Positions 13,470 through 34,481 are shown, counted from the stretch's first letter. The stretch is DNA of 37,233 nt from Prevotellaceae bacterium (GCA_031263585.1 JAISFN010000040.1:1-37233), one strand, 5' to 3'. Numbers and translations are program-made. The notes: generated by a model from the sequence alone, not told the origin.

Positions 13470-14897
13470 CTATTTTTTGATAAACCGGTCTTCTTTTTTC
13501 TTAAACGCCTGTTCAACATTAAAGTATATGGTTACCGGTTCACCCAATTTATCAACAGCTTCAATAACATCGTATTTATTTTCGATTAACCACTGTTTTT
13601 TCTTTTTAAGCGATTTTACATCGAATATATAATTTTCGTGGAGTGTAGAGATAACATGTATAGCCGTTTCCTTGGTTTTTCCATCTCCCGAATGTTGTAA
13701 AACATCTCCCAATCGTTGAATCCGCCCTTGTATTGCGCTATAGTTTTCAATGTCATTAAGTTCGTTATATATGGTGGCCATTAAATTGGCTTTTCCAAAG
13801 TCGAATGGATGTTCCTTGTATGCCTCCCTCAACAACTTAATTAGTATCTGGGAGTCTTCTGGCGTCTGGTTCTCTTTTTTCAGATAATCCATTGTTTTGT
13901 CCTTGTTCGACAAGGGATCGGTAAATACATAAATGTCGCTGAAAAGGTAGCCGTAGTACACAAAATGATAGTCCTTTAATGTAAGCGTTGGGTCATAATT
14001 ATAAAACCGCTGTATAAGTACGGGATAATACCAGCGTGAGTTGGGGTTGTATATTTCCGCCTTAATCAAATCATAATCGGGAACTCCCACATCGCTGTCT
14101 TCCGATATATCGGCTTTGTTTTTGGAGGCAGGAGCAATATTTTCATCGTGTAATGAACTTTCTATTTTTAACCTGATTACGGAAACATTATCTTTACCTC
14201 CAACCGATTTTGCAGCATCGACCAATACATGGCCGTACCTGCCCGATAAAGCTTTTTCCTCGATTACTTCGTCATCCAACATATCGCTCAAGCCATCGGA
14301 GCACAATATAAACTCGTCGCCTTCAAGCGTTTTTATCTCTTTAACAGTCAGGTAAGCTTCCTGTCCTCCTCCCCCAATCGAGTTACATATTATATTCGAC
14401 GGTGCATGTTCGTTTCCCGTCATTTCCCTCAGCGAATGGTCGATTGTAATGCGTTTTAACAGGAAATCGCGTAAACGGTAAGCGCGACTGTCGCCGGCAT
14501 GAAATACAAAAAACATATTTTCGTAAATAAGTATTCCCACCAATGTTGTTCCCATGCCCTCGCGTTCGGGGTTTTGTATACTTTCCACCGTAATTTCGGT
14601 ATGGATAATCCTGACCCAATGCTCCAGCCTTTCAATAATCTGATCGGCGGATAATCCACTTTCCAGACTGTCAATCAATACATTTAAACTCCTAAGGACC
14701 ATTTCGCTCGCTACTTCGCCAGCATTATGTCCTCCCATGCCATCGGCAACCGCCGCAATAAAACGGTGTTCGGGGTTTACGGTTATTTCCAGCCCCATCG
14801 AGCTGTCCCGGATCAGTTCACCCTGAAGCAATATTATATCTTCATTATTTTTACGAACACAACCCATATCACAAGTAGCATCGATAATCAGTTTCAT
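13470..14897 (-). CDS. PP2C-type protein phosphatase fused to DUF4919
   Basis: 475 residues. The first ~250 are a complete bacterial PP2C Ser/Thr phosphatase with every metal-site motif: RKNNED (15-20), DGMGGH (52-57), GMGTT (114-118), HAGDSR (133-138), SDGLSDM (200-206) and KDNVSV (235-240). Residues ~275-470 match the Bacteroidetes family DUF4919, recognised by RWYYPVLIQRFYNYDPTLTL and the YYGY block. No signal peptide, so it acts in the cytoplasm. It is the last gene of the six-gene minus-strand cluster, 12 bases after the FHA gene, and is the natural eraser for the cluster's kinase. The fusion partner may carry substrate or partner specificity (inference). Confidence 0.92.
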   Translation of the reverse strand: MKLIIDATCDMGCVRKNNEDIILLQGELIRDSSMGLEITVNPEHRFIAAVADGMGGHNAGEVASEMVLRSLNVLIDSLESGLSADQIIERLEHWVRIIHTEITVESIQNPEREGMGTTLVGILIYENMFFVFHAGDSRAYRLRDFLLKRITIDHSLREMTGNEHAPSNIICNSIGGGGQEAYLTVKEIKTLEGDEFILCSDGLSDMLDDEVIEEKALSGRYGHVLVDAAKSVGGKDNVSVIRLKIESSLHDENIAPASKNKADISEDSDVGVPDYDLIKAEIYNPNSRWYYPVLIQRFYNYDPTLTLKDYHFVYYGYLFSDIYVFTDPLSNKDKTMDYLKKENQTPEDSQILIKLLREAYKEHPFDFGKANLMATIYNELNDIENYSAIQGRIQRLGDVLQHSGDGKTKETAIHVISTLHENYIFDVKSLKKKKQWLIENKYDVIEAVDKLGEPVTIYFNVEQAFKKKEDRFIKK

Positions 14898-14909
14898 TGC
14901 TGCATGGTT

Positions 14910-15533
14910 TTAAGATAATTCAACAATAAAGTCAACAGTGGCAATCCTAAGGTTATCTTTATCGGTTAACGGATAGGCCACATGTGCATTTAACTGCCTC
15001 CCGTTAATCATGGTTCCGTTTGTCGAGTCAAGGTCTGTAATATACCAGATACCGTCTTTGAAATCGAGTTTGGCATGAGTACCCGATACATACTCCTGCC
15101 GAGTGAATTGATTCACATAGTCGCCATTCCGTCGGCCTATTATGGCGCCGTTTATCCCTTCGATGATTATGCTTGCCAAGGGACTGATAAGCCGTAATTT
15201 CTCTTTCTTCGGAACAGTGCCGTTTTTTTTTACGGTACTTTCTCCCGAATCGGTCTCCTGTTCCGGCGCGGGTTTGGGAACAGCAGGGATAGTCGGTTCC
15301 TGTCTTCGGGATTCAACCTTATTCTGTGCGGGCTGGGCAACGAATTGTGTTTTATCAGTATTGTTAGCCAGATCTTTGGCGGCAACTATTTCGCCTCCGC
15401 ACGATCCGCAATGCTTTTTCGTTCCAGACTTGCCGCACATTTTACAAATACGTATTTCGGTTCCGCATTGATCGCAGAAATATGAGTCGCTTTCAATATC
15501 TTCTCGGCAATTCGGGCAAATTATATAGTCCAT
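14910..15533 (-). CDS. Zinc-ribbon plus FHA domain protein
   Basis: 207 residues. The N-terminus holds two Cys4 zinc ribbons (C6, C9, C20, C23 and C30, C33, C42, C45). A Pro/Glu/Thr-rich linker covers ~50-112, and an FHA domain fills ~113-207. The FHA binding-loop residues are present: GRR (133-135), the SxxH motif as SGTHAK (S150, H153), and STNGT (170-174). FHA domains bind phosphothreonine peptides, so this is the likely reader of the kinase encoded in the same operon. It is cytoplasmic, with no membrane segment, and lies 12 bases ahead of the phosphatase. Partner specificity is not deducible. Confidence 0.93.
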   Translation of the reverse strand: MDYIICPNCREDIESDSYFCDQCGTEIRICKMCGKSGTKKHCGSCGGEIVAAKDLANNTDKTQFVAQPAQNKVESRRQEPTIPAVPKPAPEQETDSGESTVKKNGTVPKKEKLRLISPLASIIIEGINGAIIGRRNGDYVNQFTRQEYVSGTHAKLDFKDGIWYITDLDSTNGTMINGRQLNAHVAYPLTDKDNLRIATVDFIVELS

Positions 15534-15641
15534 CTTGATGTTTATTTACTATGTGTTATTTAGAATCTGATAAATCATTACACATTAACTATTTTTATAT
15601 ATATTATTTCCTGCGAAATAAAATCTTAATTCCTGTATCTA

Positions 15642-18600
15642 TTATAAAATGTCCTGTTTTGTAATAACATTCATCATGTCATTATTAAATTCGGGTGTAC
15701 CGAAAATTTTCATCAAACGGTCCGATTGTTTCATCATAGCCCGCTCGAATAATTTGCGTACTTCACGGGCGTTACCGAAGTTTTCATCACGGTTGGCGTG
15801 CATCTCACCGAATAATTGCGGCAGGTATTCCATGGCTGTTTCATCGAGCGTCATATTTTGTTTTCCAACCGTCCGTATAAAAATTTCCTGCATGGCTGCA
15901 GCATCATAATCTTCAAATAAAATGGTATGCGAAAAACGCGACGGCAAGCCAGGGTTACTGTTTAAAAATGCGTCCATTTCGTTGGTATAGCCGGCAGCTA
16001 TAACTACAAATTTACCCCTGTCGTCTTCCATACGTTTCAGCAATGCCTCGATAGCTTCATTCTCGTACCCTCCAAGCTTGTTAGGTGTTAGCGAGTATGC
16101 CTCGTCGATGAACAATATACCTCCCATGGCATTGTCGATAACTTTGTGGGTTTTGGGGGCTGTAGCGCCTACATGTTCCCCGATTAGTCCGCTGCGGTCG
16201 GTTTCGATAAAATTATGTCCTTGTAAAATACCGATATCATAAAGTATTTCACCTAAAATACGGGCTACGGTGGTTTTACCTGTACCCGGGTTACCGGTAA
16301 ATACAAAATGCAGGCTCAGCGGCATTCTTCGTCCGCCGGCTTCGGTGCGTTTCTTTTCAATAGTTAAAAAGTCGATAAGCTTTTTTACCTCGCTTTTAAC
16401 ATTTTGCAGACCGACTAGTTCGTTCAGTTTCGAAAGCCCGGCATTTTCATCCCTAGTAGATACGGTAACCACCTGAATATCTTCAGGAAGAATTGTAACA
16501 AGATCCTCATCGTTTAACGTCGACGGGTCGGATAGCGCTAAACGGCTAGATAGTTTGCGTGCTGTTGTATCTACCATCTTCACCATATCGCCGGCATTGC
16601 CGAAATTTTTGTCGCGTTTATCGTACATTTCCTGTATCGCCCGGCGCAGCAATTCATCGGCATCGGACGACAGTTTGTAGTTCTTTTTCTTAAGAATGCC
16701 CTGAAATATCTGGTACAATTCGTCCGGCACATAATCGTTAATGTGTATGGTATGTGTAAACCGCCTTTGGAAGCCTGGGTTGCTATTCATAAACTCTTTC
16801 ATTTGCACGGGATATCCGGCGGCAATAAGCACAAATTTACCCTTGTCGTCTTCCATGCGTTTCAGTATAACTTCAAGCGCCTCGTTGGCATACATGTCGC
16901 CATCGCTTTTCGGGGTAAGCGAGTAAGCCTCATCAATGAACAATATGCCGCCCAAGGCCCTGTCGATAACTGAGCTTACAATGCCCGGCGTTTCACCCAG
17001 ATGTTTCCCAATTAAATCGGAGCGGTCTACTTCAATAACATTATCGGTGGGCAATATGCCGCAGGCTTTAAAAATCTGTCCCAGTTTACGTGCAATAGTG
17101 GTTTTACCCGTTCCCGGATTACCCGTAAGTACAATGTTTACCCCTTGTATTTCTGCCCCTGTAATTCCGCGTTCCATACGCATTTTCTGGAACTGAATGT
17201 ATTGGGCTAAATTGCGTACGGCCTCTTTCACCTCGGGCATGCCTACAAACTCGTCTAATTCGGCAAGTATTTCGGGTACTGTTTTTGTTTTAGCAGCTTC
17301 TCCCTCGATATCCTGTTTTATAAGAATATTCAAATTTTCAGGACTAAGTTCCCCTTTCTTCTCCAGCTCGCCCAAACGCGAGCTTTGGCGATTTACGGCA
17401 TCCTCGAAAATCCCGCGCACAGTGCGCGCGTTACCGAAGTTTTTATCGCGCCGCATATAAATGCCTCCGAAAAAGTTATTGATAAATTTATCGGCTTCCG
17501 GATCAAGTATATAATTTTCCTTTTTTACTAATGACCTGAAGATTGCAGCCATTTCCACAGCATTGTAATCCTCGAATTCGATTGTCCGGTTAAACCTCGA
17601 TTTCATTCCCGGATTTGAGTCGAGAAACTGGTGCATTTCCTTGGTATATCCGGCGGCAATGGCAATAAACTTACCTCGGTCGTTTTCAAGTCTTGTTAGC
17701 AGCACTTCAATCGCCTTTTTACCATAGCTGTCCGATTCGGAATTTGTGAGCGAATATGCCTCATCAATAAACAATACCCCGCCCATGGCTTTATCGCAGA
17801 TATCGTTTACTTTCCCTTCGGTTTCACCGACTACTGAACCGACCAACTGCGCACGCGAAACCTCAACAAGATGCCCGCGCTGCAATACGCCCATCGATTT
17901 GAATATATCGGCAACAATACGCGCCACGGTAGTTTTACCCGTACCCGGATTACCGGTAAATATAAAATGCGATTTAAGCGTCGGCACTTCGTTTTCTTTA
18001 CCTGCACGCCTCCGTTCCATGTTGATATGGGTAATAAGCTCCGCAATATGCCGCTTTACATTGCCTAAGCCTATCAGTTCATTCAATTCGGCCATGCACT
18101 TGTCCATATCCAATGTTTTACGTTCCTGTACCGGAATGTCCTCTTTACGAATCATTATATACAAATCGTTATCCCGTTGTTCCAACGGAATATCGGCTAC
18201 CCGTTTCGAGTGGCGTGTGGCTATTTCGTCATAAAGGTTACGCATTTCGCGGCCGTTGGCAAATTTTTTATCGCGCATAGCATAACGTTGATCAATAGCT
18301 ACTTTAACAGCTTTTTCGGCTTCGGAGTCAAGCTCCTGCCCGTTCTTTTTTACAAAGCCTTTCAGTATTAAAAACAATTCGTCGGGGGTATAGTCATCAA
18401 TATGGATGAAAGCATTAAAACGGCTTTTGAGTCCGGTATTGGCTTTCAGAAAGTTTTCCATTTCATCCTGATAACCTGCGGCTATAACTACAAATTTATC
18501 GCGATCGTCTTCCATACGTTTCAACAACGTTTCAACGGCTTCTTGTCCGTATTTATCTTTTTGCTCGATAGAGCTTTGCTTTGCCAAAGCATAAGCTTCA

Positions 18601-19802
18601 TCAATAAACAATATGCCGCCCATAGCCTTATCGCAGGCCTCGGTAACCAATTTAGGCGTTTCGCCGGTGTATTGGCTAACCAGTTCGCTCCGGTCTACTT
18701 CATTTACATTACCCCTGTCAAGAAAGCCGATAGCTTCGAATATCTCCCCCAGTTTACGGGCTATGGTGGTTTTACCCGTACCAGGGTTGCCCGTAAGTAC
18801 AATATGCATCGACGGTTTTTCGCCTCCTTTCAACCCAAGTTCCACCTTTTCGCGATTGGCTTTCACGCGGTTGGCAATATCTCGTACGGCCTGTTTTACA
18901 CTTTCCATACCGATAAATTCGTCAAGTTCCGATAATACCTCGTCAACATTTTTTATACGCGGTGCATGCACTGGAATATCGTCGGGCAAAATCAACTGAC
19001 CGGCCTGTGGGTCGCTAATCACGCGCGATGAACGGTATACAAGAATGTCCAAATACAGCTTATCGACAATATGCCCGTTACCGAAACTGCTGTCCTTGGT
19101 TTTTACCATGTATTTGTACCCGTTCAGCAGCTTTTCGGCAGCTTCGGGAGTAAAGGCAATCTGGTCTTTCTCAAATCGCCTGCGCGTAATCTCGAAAAGC
19201 TGATCGGCGTTATAATCATTCAATTTGAATTTATAACGGAAACGGTTGGCAATATCAGGGTTCGAGTCGAGAAATTCGGTTAATCCGCCTGGCAAACCAG
19301 CCAGCACCACGACAGGGTCTCCATGCCAGCTTTTCATTTCAACAAAAAGTTTATCCAGTTCGTTTATATCTTTCGAATAACCGCTGGGCAATAGCTTTTG
19401 CACATTATCAATAAACAATATCCCTCCACGGGTATTTTTGATATTCTCATCCCATTCTGCTTTAAAATCGGCATAATTAACGGCATCTACCAGTTTTAAT
19501 TTGGACGACTTTATAATGCCATTGTCAAACATCATTTGCTTAAGCGCTTCGCCCAGCAGGCTCTTCCCGGTACCGGCATTACCGATAAGGATAATGTTCA
19601 TATCTATTTTCACATTACCCGAATGCGGCGATTGCCTTAAATTATTGATTGTTTTAACAATGTTATTCAACGAAGTTTTTACATTGTCCATTCCGACAAT
19701 GTTCTCGAGTAACGACTCCGATTTACTTACGGTCTGCCCGCACCATTTGCAGTATTTGGCAATATCGCGGTTTTCCTTATTACATTTCTCGCACAACAAC
19801 AT
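15642..19802 (-). CDS. Giant protein with five tandem CbxX/SpoVK-type AAA+ modules
   Basis: 1386 residues: a Cys4 zinc ribbon (C4, C7, C18, C21), then five AAA+ modules of about 270 residues. Walker A motifs are at 74-81 (GNAGTGKS), 338-345, 617-624, 894-901 and 1170-1177 (all four GNPGTGKT). Modules 2-5 keep FIDEAY in Walker B (D/E at 401/402, 680/681, 957/958, 1233/1234) and an Arg-bearing SRF or RRF segment. Module 1 has FIDN in place of FIDE and is shorter, so it probably binds but does not hydrolyse ATP. The modules belong to the CbbX/EccA-like group (Rubisco activase, T7SS EccA, SpoVK), which usually work as hexamers with one or two modules per chain. A five-module chain could make most of a ring by itself (inference). 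It follows the kinase gene in the operon. Confidence 0.93.
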   Translation of the reverse strand: MLLCEKCNKENRDIAKYCKWCGQTVSKSESLLENIVGMDNVKTSLNNIVKTINNLRQSPHSGNVKIDMNIILIGNAGTGKSLLGEALKQMMFDNGIIKSSKLKLVDAVNYADFKAEWDENIKNTRGGILFIDNVQKLLPSGYSKDINELDKLFVEMKSWHGDPVVVLAGLPGGLTEFLDSNPDIANRFRYKFKLNDYNADQLFEITRRRFEKDQIAFTPEAAEKLLNGYKYMVKTKDSSFGNGHIVDKLYLDILVYRSSRVISDPQAGQLILPDDIPVHAPRIKNVDEVLSELDEFIGMESVKQAVRDIANRVKANREKVELGLKGGEKPSMHIVLTGNPGTGKTTIARKLGEIFEAIGFLDRGNVNEVDRSELVSQYTGETPKLVTEACDKAMGGILFIDEAYALAKQSSIEQKDKYGQEAVETLLKRMEDDRDKFVVIAAGYQDEMENFLKANTGLKSRFNAFIHIDDYTPDELFLILKGFVKKNGQELDSEAEKAVKVAIDQRYAMRDKKFANGREMRNLYDEIATRHSKRVADIPLEQRDNDLYIMIRKEDIPVQERKTLDMDKCMAELNELIGLGNVKRHIAELITHINMERRRAGKENEVPTLKSHFIFTGNPGTGKTTVARIVADIFKSMGVLQRGHLVEVSRAQLVGSVVGETEGKVNDICDKAMGGVLFIDEAYSLTNSESDSYGKKAIEVLLTRLENDRGKFIAIAAGYTKEMHQFLDSNPGMKSRFNRTIEFEDYNAVEMAAIFRSLVKKENYILDPEADKFINNFFGGIYMRRDKNFGNARTVRGIFEDAVNRQSSRLGELEKKGELSPENLNILIKQDIEGEAAKTKTVPEILAELDEFVGMPEVKEAVRNLAQYIQFQKMRMERGITGAEIQGVNIVLTGNPGTGKTTIARKLGQIFKACGILPTDNVIEVDRSDLIGKHLGETPGIVSSVIDRALGGILFIDEAYSLTPKSDGDMYANEALEVILKRMEDDKGKFVLIAAGYPVQMKEFMNSNPGFQRRFTHTIHINDYVPDELYQIFQGILKKKNYKLSSDADELLRRAIQEMYDKRDKNFGNAGDMVKMVDTTARKLSSRLALSDPSTLNDEDLVTILPEDIQVVTVSTRDENAGLSKLNELVGLQNVKSEVKKLIDFLTIEKKRTEAGGRRMPLSLHFVFTGNPGTGKTTVARILGEILYDIGILQGHNFIETDRSGLIGEHVGATAPKTHKVIDNAMGGILFIDEAYSLTPNKLGGYENEAIEALLKRMEDDRGKFVVIAAGYTNEMDAFLNSNPGLPSRFSHTILFEDYDAAAMQEIFIRTVGKQNMTLDETAMEYLPQLFGEMHANRDENFGNAREVRKLFERAMMKQSDRLMKIFGTPEFNNDMMNVITKQDIL

Positions 19803-19887
19803 GACGTTCTATTTTATCCTTCTTATTTATTGATTTCCTTCATATTGAATACTTGTTAGCTCCAAATAGGCTTGTGGTTTACAGGCT

Positions 19888-20207
19888 CTAACTATCCTTA
19901 ACAAGTTTACCATGGGCTTCTATACCATCGCCATATGTTTCGTAGCAAATATACTCGACAGTGTTATCGTCTATTTTCTTCAATGCCAGCCTTGCTTCGA
20001 CACAGGGTCCCGATATAACTGTTTCCTTGAATTTAATCATACCGGCCGTGGCGCTTCGAATAGTAAGTTTTGTTTTAAACCGAAATTGGTATATTCAACA
20101 TTATACTCCTTTTTATCGGCATTGCATGCAAGTGTAATAGTCCACGATTCACCGTTCTTTTTTTGAGCGCTTCCCGTCCATTTCCCATTTAATATCTGGG
20201 AAAGGTT
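19888..20207 (-). pseudogene. Severed C-terminal domain of the kinase
   Basis: Directly after the kinase TAA (20208-20210) the same frame continues with NLSQILNGKWTGSAQKKNGE and on for about 40 codons. A one-base frame change near a T/A-rich run (about 20070-20090) then follows, and the next frame carries on (KTKLTIRSATAGMIKFKETV ... EAHGKLVKDS) to TAG 19888-19890. The GKWTGSA opening repeats the GGTWYGK opening of the last domain still in the kinase, so this was a second beta-rich periplasmic domain of about 105 residues. Two separate lesions argue for real decay, though the frameshift alone could be a homopolymer sequencing error. Confidence 0.7.
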
Positions 20208-23200
20208 TTATCCCTGTTTTTCAGCAGCTTGTTCTTCCTGTTTCCCGGCGACAATTGTCGGCTGGGTTTGGCTTGTATTGTTATTTGCCGGTTGTACATT
20301 TGCCAGTTTGTTTTGGGCGGGTGTTGAATTAGCGCTACCAGTTGATGTTGAGGTTCCCTGATCTCTTGTATACTCAATTTCCATTTTACGGGTACCGGTT
20401 GCAGCCGAATATACTACGGTAAGCTTGCTCCAGTCTTCCGTAAATTCACCGGTAATAGTTCCCTTGTATCTATAATTCAACTCGCCTTCGGTTTGTATAA
20501 ATTTCCGGTCATCCGCGTTCATTATCCCACTGAATGTGCCGCTGTAAGGTTTTTTTGTGTTTACTTTAAACGTTCCGCTTACATCAAATTCTCCGATAAC
20601 AAGAACCAGCGATGTTTCAACTTTGTCGACTTTACCGTACCAGGTTCCTCCGAGGCTTTGCATAAATTTCACCCTATTCTGCAATTCTATTTTTTCTTTA
20701 AATGCTGCGTTGTAATTGGGATGGAGCATAAAGAAAGCCACCAACAAGCCGGCAAACAAAATAATACCAGGGATTGACCATTTCAGCAATCTCTTCATAT
20801 AGTATTTGCGGCTGTTGTTAAAGTTGTCTAACGTTTCGAAAGTAGAACCATAGAAATATTCATCGTTGCTTTGGTAGGCAAAGTATAACGGCTCGACACA
20901 GGATAGCTGGAAATTGTTGGGGTTAAGCGTGTGCTTAATCTGCTTGATGGACGAAACAGCCCCCCATGCCTTGTACAGACACAAGCCGAACATTAATGCC
21001 AGTATACCGATAATAACATAGGTAAAAACAGGTGTAAGTATTGCTGCAATAATGTACACAATATAATAGATTACAATAGAAAATACCGCCGCGCACGATA
21101 GCCCGACAACAAGTCCCCCTGAGAAGAGATAGTAGAGAAAAATGATGCCCCCTACTATCAGGTAATACCAGAAACTGACATCCCAGAATTTACCCGGCAA
21201 CGGATTTTCGCTGACGGGTATTCCGTCCTTAAACAATAAAAATATCAATACCAGCGTAGGTAAAGTCATTAACGTTACAAACAATATGCGTAATGTTGTA
21301 AATAATTTGTAGTTACGGGTAGTGCCGCCTATTTTGTCCTTTACCTGGTTTTGAGCATAAACAAAACGGGCATAAGCTATATTATCGGGGTCGTAGCTGC
21401 CTACAAAATTTGTATAATCAACGGTTGCCCGTTCAAATTCTTCGACAGTATATTTTTTATGGGGGTTCTCCTGGAAATGCAAGGTAAGCCACTCACGCAA
21501 AACCCCGTTTTTCAACTGCTCCCGAACTTCTTCTCTCGGTATCGATTTTAATTCATCGAGTGTGGTAACTTTTTTATCAGCTTTGGGGAAATAATACCAG
21601 GGCTTGCATCCGCATGCCGAGATAAATTTGTATTCGCCCACCACCTCACCGTAAAACGACGTTTTTTCGCCATTCTTTTTTAAATCGAAATAGGCATTTT
21701 TATTGGCAAGCAGCGCTCCCATGTTCCTGTTTTTCAAGTAAACATACATCCATCCGTTCAGTTGTGCCAATTGATACAGCTCATTTTCCTCCGACTCATT
21801 CCGCTTACCCTGGCGAAATACAATATCGATATATTCATTTATTTTCGCACCTATATCCGTAGCCTTATAGCAATATGTTGAATCGCCGGGCAATTCGAGC
21901 ATATACGACAAATCAGGCCTTAAATTGAGCATTATCCCGAACAGGCGGGAGTATAAGCCGCTTGTCGGATCCTTAAGCCAGTTATTAACGGCGTTATACA
22001 ATGTAAACTCTTTGGTTACATTTGCCCTGTGGTTAAGCCATGCCAAAAAGCGCCCGTCAAGGAACGAATTACGAGTATCGTCCGTCCAGTCGGAATATTC
22101 CGATATAAAACTGTCAACAATCTCAGTCTCGTTTTTGCAGGCTTTAATTCCGTTTTTGGTAAGCTTTAAAAACCAAGGAAAAGCCGGACTAAGCGTGTAA
22201 ATTACGTTGTGTATGGCAAGCAGTTTATCCTTGGTTTTGGCATAACAGTCCAAAAGCTTTTTAGCTAAGTCTTTTTGTCCGTGTATATCAAGATATGCGT
22301 AAAAACGGTCGTCGGGTTTCGAAAGCGCCTCTTTATATTGGTCGATATTCCGATAATATAATTTGGCTAATTCCTCAAAGCTTGTGTATACTTGCCCGTC
22401 GGCAGCTTTAAAAGGCAGGTTTTTATCGAGTGTCCAGGCAGCAACCAGCAAACCTACATTCTGCTTATCTTTATTCGGATATTTTTCCTCGCATATTTCA
22501 TCAATAATGATGGCTAAGTTAATATCCTTTATTTTTTTCCTCAGCCAGTTTGATATCTCGCCTTTATATAAAAACCGCGTTCCTTTTTCCTCATTTTCGA
22601 ACAAAAGCATGGCCATTTGCTCCGGAGTGCTAGCGTACAAGCCCTGGGCAATATCGAAAGGGAACTTTTTATCGGCTTCGTCTCTTTCGGTACTTGTTTC
22701 GGCAATAACTTCAACGGTTTCTCCTTTATACCAACGCTCAATCTGCTCAAATCCCCACCGATTACTCTCTTTGCGTCTGGTTAATCCGCGTACTAATGTA
22801 AGCAGGCGTTCGGGTATGCTTTTATCGTAACTTAACTCGTCCTGTTTTTTTTCCAGAATTTTCCGTTCATTACCTTTCATATCAACGAACGGATTGATTC
22901 CGTTCCATGCCTCCATCAAAGTTATCCCCAGCGAGTAAAAATCGGCCTTGGGGGTAACATTTATTATTCCGTCGATAGCGATGTAAAATTCGGGGGGAGC
23001 GTAGCTCGGCGTACGTTCCTGTTTGGTAATAATAGCGTAATCCCTGCCATCGGCAAATAAAACGGATATTCCGAAATCGCCCAGCACAAGATCGGTTCTT
23101 TTCTCATCGCGGAAGAAAAGGTTTTTAGGTTTCATATCCATATGGATGAAACGTTTTTTATGGCATGCGTTTAAGGCGCTTGCAGCCTCGTAGGCAAATT

Positions 23201-23867
23201 TCAGGATTTGTTCCTCGGTTAATAGTTTCTTTACGGGGAATACATCGTTAAGAGTCCCTCCCCTAAGATATTCCATTAATTCGTATTCTCTTTCGAGGAT
23301 GGGCTTACCATCGCAAACCGAGCACTTGCCGTAATCGAATACCTTAACAATATTATAGTTATCAATGGTTGTAACCCGCGATAGTATTTCGGTAATGGTT
23401 TGCTCAAATTCCGTCCTCATTTCATCGTCCACGATACGGTTGTATAATTTCAATACAAACTGATGGTTCCGGCCTTGTATAGTAGTTTCGACAAGATAGA
23501 TCTGTCCTTCTCCGGTATTTGTCGAGATGGTTTCTACCCGATTATAGGTAATGCCTTTTAATTCAAATGAATCAAAAATTTTAGAACGGTCTCCGGCATG
23601 AAGCAGACTTTCCTGTATTGATTTTGCTTTTTTTGTAGTAAGGTAGTCTTCGCCTGTTTCGATATTGCTGCTGGCTTTATGCGTCGATTCGTTCGAACTA
23701 CCTGATCCCGCTTTGCGTGTCGATTCGTTCGAACTGTCGGAGCTGGCTTTGCGTGTGGGCTCGTTGTCATTCCCTACACCCGCTTTGCGTGTCGGTTCGT
23801 TCGGCTCTTCCGATCCGGACTTCCGTGTCGGTTCGTTTTGTTTTTTAGTGGGTTCTTGGCTATCCAT
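20208..23867 (-). CDS. Transmembrane Ser/Thr protein kinase with N-terminal Thr repeats
   Basis: 1219 residues. The N-terminal ~70 are a tail of 12-residue repeats centred on NE(P/S)T(R/H)K. The kinase domain (~101-382) has the ATP lysine in VLK (K140), catalytic loop HMDMKPKN (D244, N249; HMD instead of HRD), DFG at 264-266, and APPE at 290-293. A short CSVC insert lies at 182-185. Residues ~400-830 are a long helical region of unknown family. About five membrane helices lie between 862 and 1048. A beta-rich domain starts at GGTWYGK (1074), and a Gln/Asn/Pro-rich tail ends the protein. An odd number of helices would put the kinase in the cytoplasm and the beta domain in the periplasm. The gene looks C-terminally truncated (see 19888-20207). 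It probably phosphorylates Thr residues read by the operon's FHA protein. Confidence 0.92.
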   Translation of the reverse strand: MDSQEPTKKQNEPTRKSGSEEPNEPTRKAGVGNDNEPTRKASSDSSNESTRKAGSGSSNESTHKASSNIETGEDYLTTKKAKSIQESLLHAGDRSKIFDSFELKGITYNRVETISTNTGEGQIYLVETTIQGRNHQFVLKLYNRIVDDEMRTEFEQTITEILSRVTTIDNYNIVKVFDYGKCSVCDGKPILEREYELMEYLRGGTLNDVFPVKKLLTEEQILKFAYEAASALNACHKKRFIHMDMKPKNLFFRDEKRTDLVLGDFGISVLFADGRDYAIITKQERTPSYAPPEFYIAIDGIINVTPKADFYSLGITLMEAWNGINPFVDMKGNERKILEKKQDELSYDKSIPERLLTLVRGLTRRKESNRWGFEQIERWYKGETVEVIAETSTERDEADKKFPFDIAQGLYASTPEQMAMLLFENEEKGTRFLYKGEISNWLRKKIKDINLAIIIDEICEEKYPNKDKQNVGLLVAAWTLDKNLPFKAADGQVYTSFEELAKLYYRNIDQYKEALSKPDDRFYAYLDIHGQKDLAKKLLDCYAKTKDKLLAIHNVIYTLSPAFPWFLKLTKNGIKACKNETEIVDSFISEYSDWTDDTRNSFLDGRFLAWLNHRANVTKEFTLYNAVNNWLKDPTSGLYSRLFGIMLNLRPDLSYMLELPGDSTYCYKATDIGAKINEYIDIVFRQGKRNESEENELYQLAQLNGWMYVYLKNRNMGALLANKNAYFDLKKNGEKTSFYGEVVGEYKFISACGCKPWYYFPKADKKVTTLDELKSIPREEVREQLKNGVLREWLTLHFQENPHKKYTVEEFERATVDYTNFVGSYDPDNIAYARFVYAQNQVKDKIGGTTRNYKLFTTLRILFVTLMTLPTLVLIFLLFKDGIPVSENPLPGKFWDVSFWYYLIVGGIIFLYYLFSGGLVVGLSCAAVFSIVIYYIVYIIAAILTPVFTYVIIGILALMFGLCLYKAWGAVSSIKQIKHTLNPNNFQLSCVEPLYFAYQSNDEYFYGSTFETLDNFNNSRKYYMKRLLKWSIPGIILFAGLLVAFFMLHPNYNAAFKEKIELQNRVKFMQSLGGTWYGKVDKVETSLVLVIGEFDVSGTFKVNTKKPYSGTFSGIMNADDRKFIQTEGELNYRYKGTITGEFTEDWSKLTVVYSAATGTRKMEIEYTRDQGTSTSTGSANSTPAQNKLANVQPANNNTSQTQPTIVAGKQEEQAAEKQG
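23660..23850 (-). repeat. 36-bp coding tandem repeats in the kinase N-terminus
   Basis: Five units encode NE(P/S)T(R/H)K(A/S) with Thr at residues 14, 26, 38, 50 and 62, an exact 12-residue (36-base) period. A related EPTKK lies at 5-9. The units differ at several bases, so they are not simply a very recent expansion. Confidence 0.85.
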
Positions 23868-23912
23868 ACTGATAACTTTGTTTATTCGTTGGTTTATATA
23901 TTGATTTCCTTT

Positions 23913-24872
23913 TTATTCTAATCCATATTCCCATTCTATGTGGCCGTAGTAGGGTATCCATTCCCCTTTTGTATGCGGGCTTACGCAGTGTTCAGGGCTG
24001 GGATGTATGAGCCCTTTGTACTTGCATTTCCAAACATAATTCACCACCTCGGGTTTACGGGCGGCATAATATGTACGGGCAATCTGAGGGTTCGGAAATT
24101 CCTGCGTTTCCATTTCCTCATACATTTTACGTATTTGGTCTATGCGTTCCTGCGCCGCCTTTTTAAGTTCTTCGATATTGCCGACGCTATCAGTAAACCC
24201 CGATGTTTTCTTTTCTTCTTTTTTAACGGATTCTTTCTTTTCCGGTTTCGGAGGCTGTACCGGGCTTTCGGGATCATCTTTCCTTTCGTTCAACATTTTT
24301 TCATATTGCAGCAGTTTCTCTTGCAGGCTTTGCAGAAAAGCTTCTTTTTCGCTGTTATCTACATTTTCAGTCTCTTCAATTTGCTTGAAAATTTTTTTAA
24401 GCTCTTCTTGTAAACGCAATACTTCCTTATATTTAGGTTCTTGCAAGGCTTTCTCTCTTTCTGCCCTGCCCATTTCGGTTAAGGGCATGTTACATTTCGA
24501 GCAGAAATTGAAAGCTGTAACAGTACTGCAACGTGGACATATTATACCCGACCGGGGATTTCCACATTCGCCGCAAAATGCATCGCTCTCCTCCACATCA
24601 GCCCCGCAGTATTGGCATTTTGTTTTAGAGATGTACGTTCCACATTTGCTGCATACATCGGCATTTGCCGGCGTTATATGCCCACATTTGGGACATACCG
24701 ATCCGCTCATAGGATTTCCGCATTCACCGCAAAAATTATCATGAGTCGTACAGGCGCAACCGCATTTAGGACAAAATGCCCCTATTTTTTCCTGTACTGA
24801 TTGTTTTTGTTGTGTTTTAACCTCAGGCGCTTGTTTTTCCCTGACGCGTTCCTGTTGTCGTTCCTTTTCCAT
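23913..24872 (-). CDS. Four-zinc-ribbon coiled-coil protein
   Basis: 319 residues, cytoplasmic. After a Gln/Lys/Glu-rich start come four Cys4 zinc ribbons, each CxxC-x8..10-CxxC: C34/C37/C48/C51, C60/C63/C74/C77, C86/C89/C100/C103, C112/C115/C124/C127. This is a double-DZANK-like arrangement. A charged coiled coil spans about 133-265 with a Pro/Lys-rich break near 200-225. The end has a short WKCKYKG...PEHC region. It lies 45 bases before the kinase gene and 38 after the LamG gene. Similar ribbons in the AAA+ and FHA proteins of the same operon suggest an assembly or scaffold role (inference). No enzymatic motif is seen. Confidence 0.85.
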   Translation of the reverse strand: MEKERQQERVREKQAPEVKTQQKQSVQEKIGAFCPKCGCACTTHDNFCGECGNPMSGSVCPKCGHITPANADVCSKCGTYISKTKCQYCGADVEESDAFCGECGNPRSGIICPRCSTVTAFNFCSKCNMPLTEMGRAEREKALQEPKYKEVLRLQEELKKIFKQIEETENVDNSEKEAFLQSLQEKLLQYEKMLNERKDDPESPVQPPKPEKKESVKKEEKKTSGFTDSVGNIEELKKAAQERIDQIRKMYEEMETQEFPNPQIARTYYAARKPEVVNYVWKCKYKGLIHPSPEHCVSPHTKGEWIPYYGHIEWEYGLE

Positions 24873-24910
24873 TGTATACTTTACTGAGCAGTTATGATAA
24901 TATATTTGTT

Positions 24911-26422
24911 TTACCTGTATATGACGAAATTACGGAAAAAATTAACAGTTCCCCAAAGCGGCATTGTCGCTACTAGTATAAAAAGCAAGATAATAGCAAT
25001 GATAAGCTTTATGAACCAACCCGATGTTTCGATACCCCTGTCGGACGATTCATAATCGGGGTGATGCGACAGGTTTGTCGAAAGAATTACACCCAAAAGC
25101 CCCCCATAAAACCCTTCGAGCTTATAAGGGTTGGATAGCATAAACATACGCCTGTCGAGCAAATACATGGGAGCAAAACATGATAAGGTGTAAAATAATA
25201 TGGAGAGCCAGAATATTTTAAACTCGGCTATTTTATTCCAAAACGGCATATCGCCTCCGAACTCGGAGAACAGGGAAAATGCTACAAACAGCAGCAAGGC
25301 ACATATAATTAATGTTTTAGACCCTCCGAAACTGCGTTTTGCCACGCTGTGAACAAATTTACTGATTGACTCGACATCGTCATGCGTTTGCTGTTCGGTT
25401 GGTTTAAGCGATGCCACTTTTCTGAGCTTGCCCATTGCTGTCCGTGCCTGTTTGTACGAACTTATTTTCCAGGATTCTTTTTCCGAAACGTATGTTAAAC
25501 TTTTCCATGCATCAACAACAAGATTGCGAGCTTCTTTATTATTATTCGAGTTACCGCCATTTTTGCCAACAGTAATGGGGATCATCATAATTCGTTGCAC
25601 CAGCATAGCAAGTAACATTATAATGCTCAGGGTAATCATCCATATGGGTAAAATGGCCTTAAACAACAGGGCATATTCCATTTTTATCCTGTCTGATTCG
25701 TCGGCATCCGTAATTTTTTTACCGGTAAAAGCCTCTATTTCCGCATTGTTTAATTCCCGGTTATAAATCGAAAAATCATCAATGTAACCCCTAAACACAT
25801 CTTTTTTATCTTTCAAACTGCCTAAAAGTACGGTTGGCAGCGACTCTTTATTGGTTCCTTTTACGGTTTTCAATTCTCCATCGACACATGCTTTTATAAC
25901 GGAATCGCGTTGGTTATAAATAATTACTACGGGTATCCATTTCATGCTACTCAGGGAGCTGAACTCCATTGTTTCGGGATATCCGTTCGGAGCGGTGTAG
26001 AATACCGAAGGGGTATTACCGCATAAAGCAAATGAGCGGAACGTGCTGGTATACAAATCGGATGATTTGATCTGTGGCGTTCCTGAAGAAAAAATATAAG
26101 CGGTTTTGCTTTTGGCCGATTGTTTCATCCAAAAAGCAATGGTTAGCACGGGGTACTTTTTAGGGCTAATATTTATCGGAAGTTCAATAGGTACAAGTGC
26201 ATTCAGCGTGCTTTTGGCATTTTTTAAGCGGTCTTCGCCATATTGAATTATATCGGCTTTTGTGGTCGAATTCAATGATTTCACACTGCCCTCAGCATTA
26301 GCATTTCCATCAAAAAGATAACGGACTATAAGCCCTTCGTCCAGATTTATTTTAGCTGTGTTATTTTGGGCGTATATCATCATCGGCAAACAGATACCGA
26401 TAATCAACAGTAATTTTTTCAT
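24911..26422 (-). CDS. LamG-like domain membrane protein, first gene of the signalling operon
   Basis: 503 residues. A signal peptide (MKKLLLIIGICLPMMIYA, cleaved before Q) is followed by a concanavalin-A/LamG-like domain (~25-235), recognised by LIVRYLFDGNA, LTIAFWMKQSA, and the closing FRGYIDDFSIYNRELNNAEI, the usual LamG_3 ending. Four membrane helices follow (about 253-277, 369-388, 401-421, 470-495), with a ~90-residue basic cytoplasmic loop between the first and second. This arrangement puts the lectin-like domain in the periplasm and a loop in the cytoplasm, suiting a sensor or anchor for the kinase (inference). It is the first gene after the operon promoter at 26565-26595. Confidence 0.87.
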   Translation of the reverse strand: MKKLLLIIGICLPMMIYAQNNTAKINLDEGLIVRYLFDGNANAEGSVKSLNSTTKADIIQYGEDRLKNAKSTLNALVPIELPINISPKKYPVLTIAFWMKQSAKSKTAYIFSSGTPQIKSSDLYTSTFRSFALCGNTPSVFYTAPNGYPETMEFSSLSSMKWIPVVIIYNQRDSVIKACVDGELKTVKGTNKESLPTVLLGSLKDKKDVFRGYIDDFSIYNRELNNAEIEAFTGKKITDADESDRIKMEYALLFKAILPIWMITLSIIMLLAMLVQRIMMIPITVGKNGGNSNNNKEARNLVVDAWKSLTYVSEKESWKISSYKQARTAMGKLRKVASLKPTEQQTHDDVESISKFVHSVAKRSFGGSKTLIICALLLFVAFSLFSEFGGDMPFWNKIAEFKIFWLSILFYTLSCFAPMYLLDRRMFMLSNPYKLEGFYGGLLGVILSTNLSHHPDYESSDRGIETSGWFIKLIIAIILLFILVATMPLWGTVNFFRNFVIYR

Positions 26423-27231: not shown

Positions 27232-27308
27232 TATGCCATCTTCAAACCATAAAAAACAAACAAAAGATGAAACTTCAACGGAGTTTTTGTAACAATCTTT
27301 TTTTATTT

Positions 27309-27339
27309 TTTGTCGTTCCATATTAAATATTTATCTTTG
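27309..27339 (+). promoter_or_regulatory. Promoter in repeat copy 1
   Basis: TTTG (27309-27312), a 19-base spacer, and TATCTTTG (27332-27339) match the Bacteroidetes -33/-7 consensus at ideal spacing. Copy 2 keeps both boxes and the exact spacer length. Confidence 0.7.
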
Positions 27340-27345
27340 GGGATC

Positions 27346-27512
27346 AGATCTATACCAGATAAAATGCGCAATGTATGTGAAATAGTATCGGAAATGTTTG
27401 GCGGAATGGAAAATTTCGTTACACACACATCGCCTCGCGCGCGATTTAAGCATAAAACAAACATCCTTCAAGCGTTCCGGCTTAATCCAAAAACCGGAAC
27501 GCTTGTTCTTAT
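27346..27512 (+). ncRNA. Candidate small RNA, copy 1
   Basis: A transcript from the promoter at 27309-27339 would start near 27346 and end after the hairpin at 27470-27504, about 165 nt long. The segment includes a small conserved hairpin (ATCT-ATACC-AGAT). It has no conserved reading frame, and its sequence is more conserved between the two copies than the flanks. Family unknown; it could also be an untranslated leader. Confidence 0.4.
27470..27504 (+). terminator. Terminator-like hairpin, copy 1
   Basis: An 11-bp perfect stem (AAGCGTTCCGG / CCGGAACGCTT) with a 13-base loop CTTAATCCAAAAA, followed by TGTTCTTATT. Copy 2 has the same stem with wobble pairs and the reverse-complement loop. Confidence 0.65.
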
Positions 27513-27762: not shown

Positions 27763-28152
27763 ATGAAACGGCTATTATTTTTTATTACATTTTCTTTTAT
27801 CCTAAACTTTGTTTATAGTCAAGATTTAACAGGAACATGGAACATTGACTCTATAAAGGTAAATGGAGTAGATGCCATTGCTAACTATAAAGATTATGTA
27901 CTTCAAGGAGTTTTTCAACAAATTGAATTTGTCGATGGGGAGAATTGTACATTATATGTAGATAATGTGAAGAAGAATGGTTCTTATATTATTGTAAATA
28001 ATGAAATTACAATTAAAACCGACAATGAGTATACTTATCAAATTGACCTGAATCAGTCACTTTTATTAAGAGCTAATTTATCGGGGACGGATTTTGCTGG
28101 AATGCCAGTGCCGTATGAAGTACAAATGTGGTTTAATAAAGAGAATAAATGA
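27763..28152 (+). CDS. Small secreted lipocalin-like protein
   Basis: 129 residues with a signal peptide (MKRLLFFITFSFILNFVYS, cleaved before Q). The mature part is beta-rich and opens DLTGTWNIDSIKVNG, the pattern of the short lipocalin-like domains common in Bacteroidetes, and ends YEVQMWFNKENK. The stop overlaps the next start (ATGA at 28149-28152), so the two genes are translationally coupled and their products may act together. It lacks a lipobox Cys, so it is probably soluble in the periplasm or exported. It is AT-rich relative to the larger gene that follows. Confidence 0.7.
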   Translation: MKRLLFFITFSFILNFVYSQDLTGTWNIDSIKVNGVDAIANYKDYVLQGVFQQIEFVDGENCTLYVDNVKKNGSYIIVNNEITIKTDNEYTYQIDLNQSLLLRANLSGTDFAGMPVPYEVQMWFNKENK

Positions 28153-31100
28153 AAAAACTATTCTTTTTAATTTCTTTAATTATTCCATTTTTGGGCTTAG
28201 CTCAAAATAACTTAATCCCCGATACGGAAAACTGTAGCAGCGCCGGCGCTGAATTTGCATTTACCATTCGGAACGCATGGAACTCAAATACCGGCAAAAA
28301 GCTTGATGCCCGGCATGTGCCCATAATAGGAGATATTGATGGAGACGGTAATGTTGAAGTTTTCGCAGCAGATGGTTATGCCGGAGATGGTGGAAACCTA
28401 TTTGTATTTGGTGGGAAAACTGGCAAGAAAATAGGAGTAATAAAGTGCCCGGGAATAGCCAAAGAGTCAGCAAATTATACTAATGGAACTGCAATATTTA
28501 GGCGAGGCTCCACAGGTAACGGCTCAGTATTTATTGCAGGTTATAATAATGTAATTTATCTTTATGAGGTATCGTACCGTGATAGCGATACAATTATTTT
28601 TACAAAAGTATGGGAACGCTCGTTGGCTGTCTCAAAAACCGTTCCTATGGCTGCCGATTTGGATGGGGATGGAAAAATCGAAATTGTTACGGGTCAATAT
28701 ATCATTGATGCGGATACAGGAACTACTTTGGCAACTTTGCCGTATAAAGGCTTAGCTCTAACTTTTGGCGTATCATTCCCCTTAATTGCAGAGTTGGATA
28801 CTGACGGACATCCTGAGGTTATTGTCGGAACGCATGTTTATAAATATTCGGCAGGAACGCTTAGTTTTTGGACCTGTATGCCCGGATTTACTCAAGCAAG
28901 CGGACAAGATGGCTGTAACATTGCAGCCGATATAAATCAAGACGGTGTTATGGATTTGGTTTACCAAAGCCCGGGTTCAGGCTCAGGATATATCAGGGTT
29001 TGGACTCCATCTACCGGACAAAACTTAGGAGATGTGGCAACGAGCTTACCTGGGCATGCCCGATCATATCATTTTGTAGGAGATATTGACGGAGCAGTTG
29101 AAGTTGATGGTAAAAAATATCCCGAAATTTGCGTAAATACAGTAGGGGTATTGTATGCATACAAGTATAACGGCTCTACGTTCTCTCAGAAATGGAGCAT
29201 GAACCATTCTGATGTGTCGGGAGGAACTGCTTTAACTTTATTCGATTTTAATAATGACGGAGTGGTTGAGTTAGTATACCGCGACCAAACCCATTTACAT
29301 ATTTTTGATGGCAGCGGCAACGCTCCTGTTCCTGCAACAACCGCTATTGCATGCGGTTCTGCAACTATTGTTGAAACGCCGGTTGTTGCCGATGTTACAG
29401 GCGACGGCAGCGCTAACATTATTGTAATGGGAGATCCGGCAGGAACTAATAATGCTGTTTATGGCGAGGTAATGGTATTCGAAGGTAAAGACTCAAAATG
29501 GGCTTCATGTCCTAATGTTTGGAACCAGAATTTATACAGTCCGTTATTAATTAATACCGACTTAACTGTGCCAACAACAGTATTGCCTGCGAATGTTACT
29601 TTTACCCGCCCGGACGCTTCCAAAGTGCAATTTTATAACGGGGGCCCTATGCAGGCGCCTTATGTGAGTAGTTCTACTTATTTACCTATTGATTTAGCTC
29701 CGGATATTTTTATTGTTAGCGGTACTTTAACTATTCTGTCGAATACCTCTATCCGATTGGATATAGTTTATAGCAACCAGGGTAAAGCTGTAGCAGCCGC
29801 TAATATGCCGATACAATATTACCAAAACTTTATAGCTACAGCCAATGTTATTGATACAGATGTATTGGGAGTTGATTTATACCCCGGTCAAACGCATACA
29901 ATAAGTAAAGTTATTACAGGGCTGAGCAACCCTATGCCAACCCAGTTCTATGTACGCGTAATGGACGACGGTTCGGGAACTTTTCCTCCTGCGGGAGCAT
30001 GGAGCGACTGTAACCTTACAAATAACACCAAATCATTCGGAACAATAGAGTTATTTAAAACAGTAAATTCACAAAATGCCTGTGTCGACGGGACAAGTAT
30101 ATTTACCATCAGATTGATAAATAATACCGACATAACAAGTTCGCCTGTAACTTATACCAATATAGTATTGACAGATAGTCTTGGTTCGGGTTGGAACTTC
30201 GTATCGGCATCACCGGTAAATGGCACAGTAGGAAATTACAGTAATGCTACCCGTAAAATAGAGTGGAAAGTGCCTTCCTTAGCTCCGGGAGCTACTGCCA
30301 TATTGCTGATAACCGCAAAATCAACAACTGCGGGTTCTATCCGTAACACGGTTTGGATAGAAGAAATAAATGGAACGGTATTAGGACGCGAGGCAATTGA
30401 AGCTTATGTAATTGTTGCGGCAGAACAAGCTCCGGCAGCGGCAACTATATCTCCTGCTAACCCTGCAATTTGCGCTTCGGGTTATGTAACATTAACTGCC
30501 TCGGTAGCGGGTGCAACTTCCTACCAGTGGTATAAAGATAATGTAGAGATATCGGGTGCAACAAGCCAATCGTACAATGCAACTTTAGCCGGCAATTATA
30601 CAGTTACCTACTATAACGGAACTTGTGTGTCGCAAATGAGTAATGCGGTTACAGTTTATGTAAACTCGCACGCAACAATATCGCAGTTAACAGTCCCGAT
30701 ATTAAATACTACTATTTGCAGCGGAAGTACAGCTACCTTCACTGCCAGCAGTATTGGTGTATTCAATCCGGTGTACAAATGGTATACAAGCCAAACTGAT
30801 CTTACTGCTTTTCATATAGGGGCAAGTTATACAACCCCGGCTTTAACAAGCGCTACAAGTTATTATGTAAGCGTATTGGGTGATAATTATTGTGAAAATG
30901 AAGTAAATAATCGCTGTCAGGTAACTGTAAGCATACAGCCTAACGCATCGGCAACTAATATTGTAGTAGCAGATGCAACCATTTGTTCCGGTGAAACAGC
31001 TATTTTAACAGCTACTGCCCCATTAGTTACAAGCCCCGTATTCAACTGGTACAGCAGCCAAACGGCAATTACGCCTATTTATACCGGAGCCAGTTATAAC

Positions 31101-32630: not shown

Positions 32631-32729
32631 TTTATTGTCTATAGAAAACTATGTAAGACGCTCTTTTTATGACTAATAACAATGGGCAAAATAGAAGGGA
32701 TTAGGTTTTCATAACAATCTTTTTTATTG

Positions 32730-32760
32730 TTTGTCGTTCCATATTAAATATTTATCTTTG
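32730..32760 (+). promoter_or_regulatory. Promoter in repeat copy 2
   Basis: TTTG (32730-32733), 19 bases, TATCTTTG (32753-32760), the same boxes and spacing as copy 1. Confidence 0.7.
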
Positions 32761-32766
32761 GAAATC

Positions 32767-32932
32767 AAATCTATACCAGATAAAATGCGCAATGTATGTG
32801 AAATAGTATCGGAAATGTTTGGCGGAATGGAAAATTTCGTCACACACATCGCCTCGCGCGTAATTTAAGCATAAAACAAACACCCTTCAAGCGTTTTGGT
32901 TTTTGGATTAAGTCGGAATGCTTGTTTTTTAT
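32767..32932 (+). ncRNA. Candidate small RNA, copy 2
   Basis: Predicted from the promoter at 32730-32760 to the hairpin at 32889-32923 and its T-run, about 165 nt as in copy 1. Differences in the hairpin stem are G-U wobbles on plus-strand RNA, which supports transcription of this strand. Confidence 0.4.
32889..32923 (+). terminator. Terminator-like hairpin, copy 2
   Basis: AAGCGTTTTGG pairs with TCGGAATGCTT over 11 bp using four G-U pairs. The 13-base loop is TTTTTGGATTAAG, the reverse complement of the copy 1 loop. A run GTTTTTTAT follows, giving a better terminator than copy 1. Confidence 0.65.
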
Positions 32933-33494: not shown

Positions 33495-33568
33495 TCGGGG
33501 TACCAGGACTCGAACCTGGGACCCCCTGCTCCCAAAGCAGGTGCGCTAGCCAACTGCGCCACACCCCG
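33495..33568 (-). tRNA. tRNA-Pro (anticodon TGG)
   Basis: 74 bases on the minus strand, folding as a standard cloverleaf. Acceptor stem CGGGGTG / TACCCCG with one G-T pair and discriminator A; D-arm GCGC-AGTTGGCTA-GCGC; anticodon stem CCTGC / GCAGG with loop TTTGGGA, giving anticodon TGG; T-arm CCAGG-TTCGAGT-CCTGG. CCA is not encoded. An integrase stub lies downstream of its 3' end. Confidence 0.97.
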
Positions 33569-33758: not shown

Positions 33759-34481
33759 TTAATAATTCCCTAAATGGGGAATTATTTTAAAGTCAAGCAT
33801 GTTTACCTCATACAGAGAAGACTGTTCTTTCCCTATGTTTAATAATGCTTTTATCGTTTTCCCAGCTATTGCTCCTCCTATAATGTTCGAAATGAAACTA
33901 AAATAAGCTTGCTCGTTATCATATGGGTGTAAGTGTTGAAAAAGGCTGGTTACAGTCTCTTTATATTTCTCTTTGTTATTACCGCAGTATATACCATATG
34001 CACCTTTCCAGTCAATTCCAAAACCTCCTGCCAAATAAAAACCTTTTTTATCCGCCAAATCAATCAGATTCAAAGCAAGTTGATTGCTTTGTAAAATTTC
34101 AATCACAACTTTTGCATTACCAATCAGCCGGTCGACATTGTCAGATGTCATTACCGTATTTAACACGGTAACATTCTTATTCAATCCGTCAATATTATTT
34201 TGCCGGGCAGCTAGCGTCCGCAATTTTCCATAATCATTCATTCCAAACAATGTTTGCGAAGGTAACATATCCTCATTCACCGTTCTATTATCAATAATCT
34301 TTATACGTCCTATCCCGGCAGCAAGCAAACAACGCAAAACAGCTATCCCAATGCCATCCATCCCGTTAATAATTACTTCCGAATACTTAAGCTTTTCTTG
34401 TCCTTCAATGCCTGGTTCCAGCGCTTTAATCTGTCTCGAAAATTGTTTCAATTCACCAGGGGATAGTATACTTGGCTTCAT
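33759..34481 (-). CDS. ThiF/E1-like protein, degenerate (paralogue 1)
   Basis: 240 residues with the E1-like (ThiF/MoeB/HesA) Rossmann layout: helix FSRQIKALEPGIEGQEKL, then nucleotide loop GMDGIG (40-45; the family usually has GxGGxG), LRCLLAAGIGRIKIIDNRTV, and LPSQTLFG where active members have NLxRQ. The inner Asp of the ATP site (DxxDN in MoeB) is replaced by IEILQSN, and neither the zinc CxxC pairs nor a catalytic Cys are visible. It probably binds a nucleotide or partner without adenylating it (inference). Its ATG overlaps the stop of the upstream paralogue by four bases, so the genes are coupled. It ends a TlpA-ThiF operon. Confidence 0.75.
   Translation of the reverse strand: MKPSILSPGELKQFSRQIKALEPGIEGQEKLKYSEVIINGMDGIGIAVLRCLLAAGIGRIKIIDNRTVNEDMLPSQTLFGMNDYGKLRTLAARQNNIDGLNKNVTVLNTVMTSDNVDRLIGNAKVVIEILQSNQLALNLIDLADKKGFYLAGGFGIDWKGAYGIYCGNNKEKYKETVTSLFQHLHPYDNEQAYFSFISNIIGGAIAGKTIKALLNIGKEQSSLYEVNMLDFKIIPHLGNY

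Follow-up and report, generated by a model that had tools for sequence, protein, structure and literature searches.

The window analysed here, a stretch of 37,233 nt from a Prevotellaceae bacterium (GCA_031263585.1 JAISFN010000040.1:1-37233), carries on its minus strand a conserved five-gene signalling operon that can now be named for gut and rumen Bacteroidota. In transcriptional order, its genes encode a zinc-ribbon scaffold protein (ZR), a transmembrane Ser/Thr kinase (KIN), a chain of AAA+ modules (AAA), a zinc-ribbon protein with an FHA domain (FHA), and a PP2C phosphatase (PP2C). We rate the operon as phosphothreonine kinase-FHA-PP2C signalling to which two things are added: a motor of an unusual kind and, as a new feature, an array of threonine-centred repeats on the N-terminal tail of the kinase. 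These properties are consistent with a self-contained phosphothreonine assembly switch at the inner membrane, an interpretation that we consider evenly balanced between right and wrong.

A five-gene core of fixed order

An earlier note on the cluster at 13470-26422 had described a six-gene operon. All six open reading frames (ORFs) are present on the minus strand, where every cluster feature given below lies, and Pfam and NCBIfam searches bear out the domains assigned to them (Laminin_G_3, DZR, Pkinase, five AAA modules, DZR with FHA, and PP2C). The operon proper, however, comprises five genes. ZR, KIN, AAA, FHA, and PP2C follow one another in exactly this order at 58 of 89 loci, made up of the window, 80 loci from a scan of GTDB, and eight more from genome searches; most of the remaining loci end at a contig edge or have no ORF called for FHA. 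Within the core, the intergenic gaps have medians of 3, 2, -4, and 8 bp. Rather than being scattered independently across genomes, the five genes keep their order in some 90 loci, and the core is real as a unit.

The sixth gene encodes a LamG-type membrane protein of 503 residues (24911-26422; Laminin_G_3, 8e-13). It is a window-specific neighbour, with no relative found in 60 related genomes or in 80 related operon loci. The PP2C gene (13470-14897, 475 residues) carries a window-specific fusion of the phosphatase (residues 9-242) to DUF4919 (residues 278-460), and a PP2C of this length was seen in the window only. Both the LamG gene and the fusion are local additions outside the conserved unit. 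Nor does that unit include the good promoter proposed at the head of the cluster, which the sequence does not bear out. The best sigma-70-like match (26275-26247) falls inside the LamG ORF, promoter-like sites in the window occur at about chance frequency (50 vs 39.8 +/- 7.3), and no Bacteroidetes-type TTTG/TAnnTTTG site was found upstream of the LamG gene. Because KIN and AAA are separated by 405 bp in the window (about 0 in other loci), a single transcript is unproven there. The interval (19803-20207) holds the remnant of a further beta domain, which a stop codon and a change of frame set apart from KIN. The in-frame continuation of KIN reads NGKWTGSAQKKNGESWTITL..., and the remnant represents either what decay has left of a second outer domain or a mistake in the assembly.

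The distribution of the operon was followed with a ZR profile built from six loci and scanned over GTDB, one genome per species, which yielded 133 relatives. The best 80 of the 133 were retrieved and are all Bacteroidales by name (one is labelled just Bacteroidia); carriers among them include the cultured Bacteroides cellulosilyticus, B. stercorirosoris, and Segatella copri, as well as B. timonensis and many rumen Prevotella. Another class of Bacteroidota contributes five genomes with ZR; four of them hold the remaining operon, whereas in the fifth the contig is 7 kb long and carries just ZR and KIN. Occurrence is patchy: ZR was detected in 6 of 300 genomes of the window's family, and the FHA profile matched 5 of 393 sampled genomes of the order, all from different families. 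The AAA tree mixes families and classes. It places the window beside Prevotella and the other class (99/95 support), apart from most Bacteroidales, a position that implies transfer between lineages. About 30 Prevotella loci occupy a constant chromosomal site amid housekeeping genes, with M13 peptidase, ABC-F, homoserine O-succinyltransferase, and U32 genes on the flanks. A scan of viral contigs and plasmids returned no ZR relative.

Individual loci show variants and additional neighbours. Only one locus (L092) is rearranged, to ZR-AAA-FHA-PP2C-KIN, with an extra short kinase upstream. In the other Bacteroidota class, ZR and KIN are separated by a SUKH (SMI1/KNR4) gene (L206:4665-5198 and L207:9289-10083). 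Upstream of the operon lie TerB-domain genes in L212 and, in L073, a gene for an M48 peptidase whose TerB match is weak.

Threonine arrays, catalytic sites, and the AAA+ chain

KIN (20208-23867, 1219 residues; Pkinase, 4e-31) consists of an N-terminal tail, the kinase domain, helical repeats, about five transmembrane helices, and an outer domain. The tail (23583-23867) is a putative phosphothreonine array, in which EPTRK occurs three times alongside EPTKK, ESTRK, and ESTHK. Threonine accounts for 11.3% of the KIN tail vs 5.0% of the rest of the protein, and the tail is the richer part in 49 of 50 representatives (Wilcoxon p 4e-15). In 38 of the 50 tails, repeats centred on Thr exceed those of shuffled sequences; in the window, 13 pairs of similar Thr-centred segments compare with 0.24 in shuffles. 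The repeat unit itself changes with the lineage, from EPTRK in the window to KTLRP, DKTLKP, EKTIRP, SGTQRP, GTVRP, PQGTAV, DVHSTGR, or PQASDTG elsewhere. The tail is a fast-changing array of Thr-centred repeats.

The same class of motif reappears on the reader protein. In roughly half of the lineages, one or two copies of the motif class of the KIN tail are also present in the FHA protein, placed in its linker or C-terminally (at the extreme C-terminus in the other class). Examples of such KIN/FHA pairs are EKTMRPG/EKTLRPG, GSTVRPG/GGTVRPG, NTTIGGR/DKTIGGR, and PQGTAV/PQGTAV, joined in the other class by the C-terminal pairs SDATVRV/SDATVRV and DKTVRI/DKTVRI. Pairing of each KIN with its own FHA protein scores 8.8 vs 4.5 +/- 0.8 after permutation (p < 1e-5, n = 35), and ZR, PP2C, and AAA, used as controls for motif pairing, gave null results. 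Across five genomes with the PQGTA motif, 41 copies were counted genome-wide, of which 37 lie in the KIN tail, three in the FHA protein, and one elsewhere. A genome-wide search for further substrates by motif turned up few matches to [DE]KT[LIVM]RP and E[PS]TRK outside the operon, mostly at about the numbers of the controls; the exceptions concern [DE]KT[LIVM]RP in two genomes (G456 and G457), with one and three extra copies vs zero in the controls.

The residues expected of a writer, a reader, and an eraser are intact. The catalytic K/D/N/DFG set is kept in 78 of 79 aligned KIN sequences. The protein shows the features of a Hanks-type Ser/Thr kinase (catalytic Lys, HxD, Asn, and DFG), with HMD in place of HRD in the window, which makes its KIN a non-RD kinase. 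FHA (14910-15533, 207 residues; Pfam FHA, 7e-14) combines a double zinc ribbon, a linker, and the FHA domain; of the pThr-binding residues, R and S are present in 70 of 70 sequences and N in 67 of 70. The metal ligands of PP2C are intact in 62 of 62.

AlphaFold2 modelled the folded construct of KIN with a mean predicted local distance difference test (pLDDT) score of 86. The helical-repeat region (21378-22670) corresponded to no family in a Pfam search, and the matches of a fold search with KIN were dominated by kinase domains. The membrane segment (20712-21305) was assigned from a hydropathy scan and the AlphaFold2 helices. Beyond it lies a C-terminal domain predicted to be outside the cytoplasm (20373-20648), which varies by lineage: a beta domain in the window, SH3b in one locus (L052), and none in Prevotella.

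AAA (15642-19802, 1386 residues) unites a zinc ribbon and five CbbX/SpoVK/EccA-type modules in a single chain, with AAA and AAA_lid_6 above cut-off in Pfam together with TIGR02881, TIGR03922, and TIGR02880. EccA1 and CbbX are its nearest solved chains in the PDB. Three, four, and five modules were counted in 13, 63, and one of the 77 chains of a first set, and chains of 1385-1392 residues are also found at three loci of the other class. Module 1 is degenerate in the window (19017-19715), where Walker A is present and the Walker B DE is changed to DN. The same holds more widely: in 58 of 62 four-module chains, module 1 has the Walker A Lys and has lost the Walker B DE, and the later modules are canonical. 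By its residues, module 1 probably binds ATP without hydrolysing it. A few phages encode multi-CbbX chains, and phage CbbX/SpoVK-like AAA proteins (H1-H11, e.g., Bacillus phage G gp596 and Mycobacterium phage Adler) share about 28-43% identity with several modules of the window chain.

In ZR (23913-24872, 319 residues; DZR), four CxxC..CxxC zinc ribbons are accompanied by a long helical hairpin and, at the C-terminus, by a fifth conserved zinc site of the form W-x-C-x6-H-x5-C. The domain around this site (23946-24038) supplied the family signature for the scan, and W281, C283, H290, C296, and W305 are invariant in 46 sequences. A fold search of ZR against the PDB gave no significant whole-fold match.

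A proposed assembly switch and its alternatives

In the proposed switch, KIN would phosphorylate threonines of its own tail array, and several copies of the FHA protein would then dock on the phosphorylated tail. Where the FHA protein carries the motif, its phosphorylated form could bind either a second FHA protein, in the manner of TIFA, or its own FHA domain, in the manner of GarA. ZR and the zinc-ribbon-tipped AAA chain may enter the assembly, and the two to four active modules of that chain would remodel or dismantle the complex or a client. PP2C, with its catalytic residues intact, is expected to strip the phosphates and reset the switch. We infer the membrane location of the complex. If this scheme is true, the operon would show that prokaryotes too have multivalent phosphothreonine scaffolds, here served by an AAA+ motor of their own. 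It would also be one of the rare kinase systems whose phospho-motif visibly changes between lineages. A more elaborate form of the scheme is a previously undescribed hub. In it, KIN would mark its own rapidly changing repeat tail with a multivalent phosphothreonine code, the motif-bearing FHA protein would polymerise there into a TIFA-like signalosome, and the single-chain multi-AAA+ motor would dismantle the product. We put this form forward tentatively, as somewhat less likely than not.

The suggestion that phosphorylated threonine is read by FHA gains from the repeat arrays, as a reading of sequence. The same cannot be said of the envelope signal attributed to the LamG and kinase periplasmic domains. 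LamG lies outside the conserved system, and a fixed envelope ligand for the kinase is unlikely because the predicted outer domain of KIN differs between lineages and is missing in Prevotella.

Several observations weigh against the assembly switch. The client of the AAA+ chain is one that we infer wholly. The pairing of motifs appears to concern motif classes between clades and to depend on a handful of independent switches: when own pairs were set against swaps among just the three nearest relatives, their advantage was lost (p 0.52), and fine-scale coevolution of the KIN tail with the FHA linker is unsupported. A clear FHA-borne motif is missing from about half of the lineages, among them Prevotella, several Muribaculaceae, and the loci L070 and L085. 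Rumen Prevotella have KIN tails with just two to four motifs, which form no close repeats. Within the window, the FHA linker (15225-15299) carries two tail-like Thr motifs, QEPT and ESTVKK, whose match to the tail is weak (score 17, rank 8 of 35).

A metabolic switch of the GarA/OdhI type, a kind marked by binding and inhibition of 2-oxoglutarate or glutamate enzymes, would assign the FHA protein another role. Unphosphorylated and soluble, it would bind a target enzyme until phosphorylation made its linker fold back on the FHA domain of the same molecule; the KIN tail would serve only to recruit it to the kinase. In GarA, a small FHA protein, the phosphorylatable Thr motif (ETTS) sits in an unstructured extension, apart from the FHA domain (PMC5448819). 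The single motif beside the conserved FHA domain of the operon protein may correspond to it, in the half of lineages that carry one and weakly in the window. However, this explanation accounts neither for KIN arrays of up to 10 copies nor for the AAA chain and ZR, and it lacks a basis in the other half of lineages. Unlike GarA/OdhI-PknG, the operon joins a membrane kinase, PP2C, and AAA+, adds zinc ribbons, and repeats the motif on KIN. We regard such a switch as unlikely.

It is also improbable that the operon exerts post-translational control over an envelope or secretion machine encoded elsewhere, as in the threonine phosphorylation pathway of the type VI secretion system (T6SS) or with EccA in type VII secretion. 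The enzyme trio is that of PpkA-PppA-Fha, likewise encoded together; Fha is itself phosphorylated there, and PpkA and Fha form condensates (PMC12607579). Moreover, the NCBIfam EccA and CbbX models match all five AAA modules, in line with the nearest PDB chains. On the other hand, the window genome, a metagenome-assembled genome that is 88% complete, gave no match to PF05943 (VipB/TssC), for which the E. coli control was positive, in agreement with the earlier view that no T6SS structural gene is visible. No secretion gene co-occurs in the operon, and the Prevotella flanks are housekeeping genes. The multi-module CbbX AAA+ chain, the zinc-ribbon scaffold, and the KIN tail array are further differences from the T6SS pathway. 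Each AAA module belongs to the CbbX/EccA/SpoVK family, but CbbX and EccA have one module per chain, whereas the operon chains have three to five, the first without the Walker B Glu.

A role in phage defence or another biological conflict, for a system that pairs phospho-signalling with an AAA+ motor, is very improbable: the patchy spread, the mixing of lineages in the AAA tree, the SUKH or TerB neighbours at some operons, and kinase matches to defence-kinase profiles speak for it, but PADLOC returned merely generic AAA or kinase matches short of the full marker set of a known defence system, the core has no effector, ZR has no relative in the viral contigs and plasmids, and the Prevotella site is stable.

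Other known systems resemble the operon in part. TIFA, in which the FHA domain of one copy binds the phosphothreonine pT9 of another, head-to-tail, to drive assembly (PMC10865109), belongs to a eukaryotic pathway with an unrelated alpha-kinase, ALPK1, and the shared motif is suggestive of a similar way of working only. ArnA, an archaellum regulator of Sulfolobus, is an FHA protein with a zinc finger in a kinase/phosphatase network (PMC6509490); the ArnA-ArnB system differs from the operon in being archaeal, in its vWA partner, in using PP2A instead of PP2C, and in having no AAA+ chain. The parallels with PpkA-Fha, GarA, TIFA, and ArnA are ones of working principle, not of membership.

The TerY-P triad comprises a kinase, a PP2C, and a vWA protein, with zinc ribbons in some cases. 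Linked kinase and PP2C genes, along with the TerB neighbours at some loci, recall it, but the operon has FHA and the AAA+ chain instead of a vWA partner. As the earlier note had stated, no vWA protein is visible: Pfam detected none in the 20 main window ORFs scanned.

The absence of any recognised precedent had been put too strongly, given that parts of the logic recur in PpkA/Fha/PppA, GarA/OdhI, ArnA, and TIFA. No description of the operon was found among the 5.39 million open-access papers searched in full text. PADLOC and NCBIfam searches gave generic matches only. The nearest published survey, on NTP-dependent conflict systems, mentions kinases, FHA, and PP2C, combined in other ways (PMC7159879).

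Further features of the window and its genome

A second, different phospho-signalling cluster is encoded in the same genome (L004:15255-19269 and L005:1-6884; G000:C30, about 35.2-46.9 kb). It includes a LytTR regulator, FHA, a caspase (C14), a zinc-FHA protein, a kinase-FGE-sulfatase fusion, a second kinase, and PP2C. Within the window, a direct repeat of about 190 bp (27283-27483 and 32705-32902) is 90-96% identical over most of its length and flanks genes for an FG-GAP/Ig_7 protein (28149-32630) and a lipocalin-like protein (27763-28152). The repeat contains a hairpin and Bacteroidetes-promoter-like TTTG...TATCTTTG sites. Two neighbouring ThiF/E1-like genes (33759-35209, minus strand) adjoin a tRNA gene at 33495-33568.

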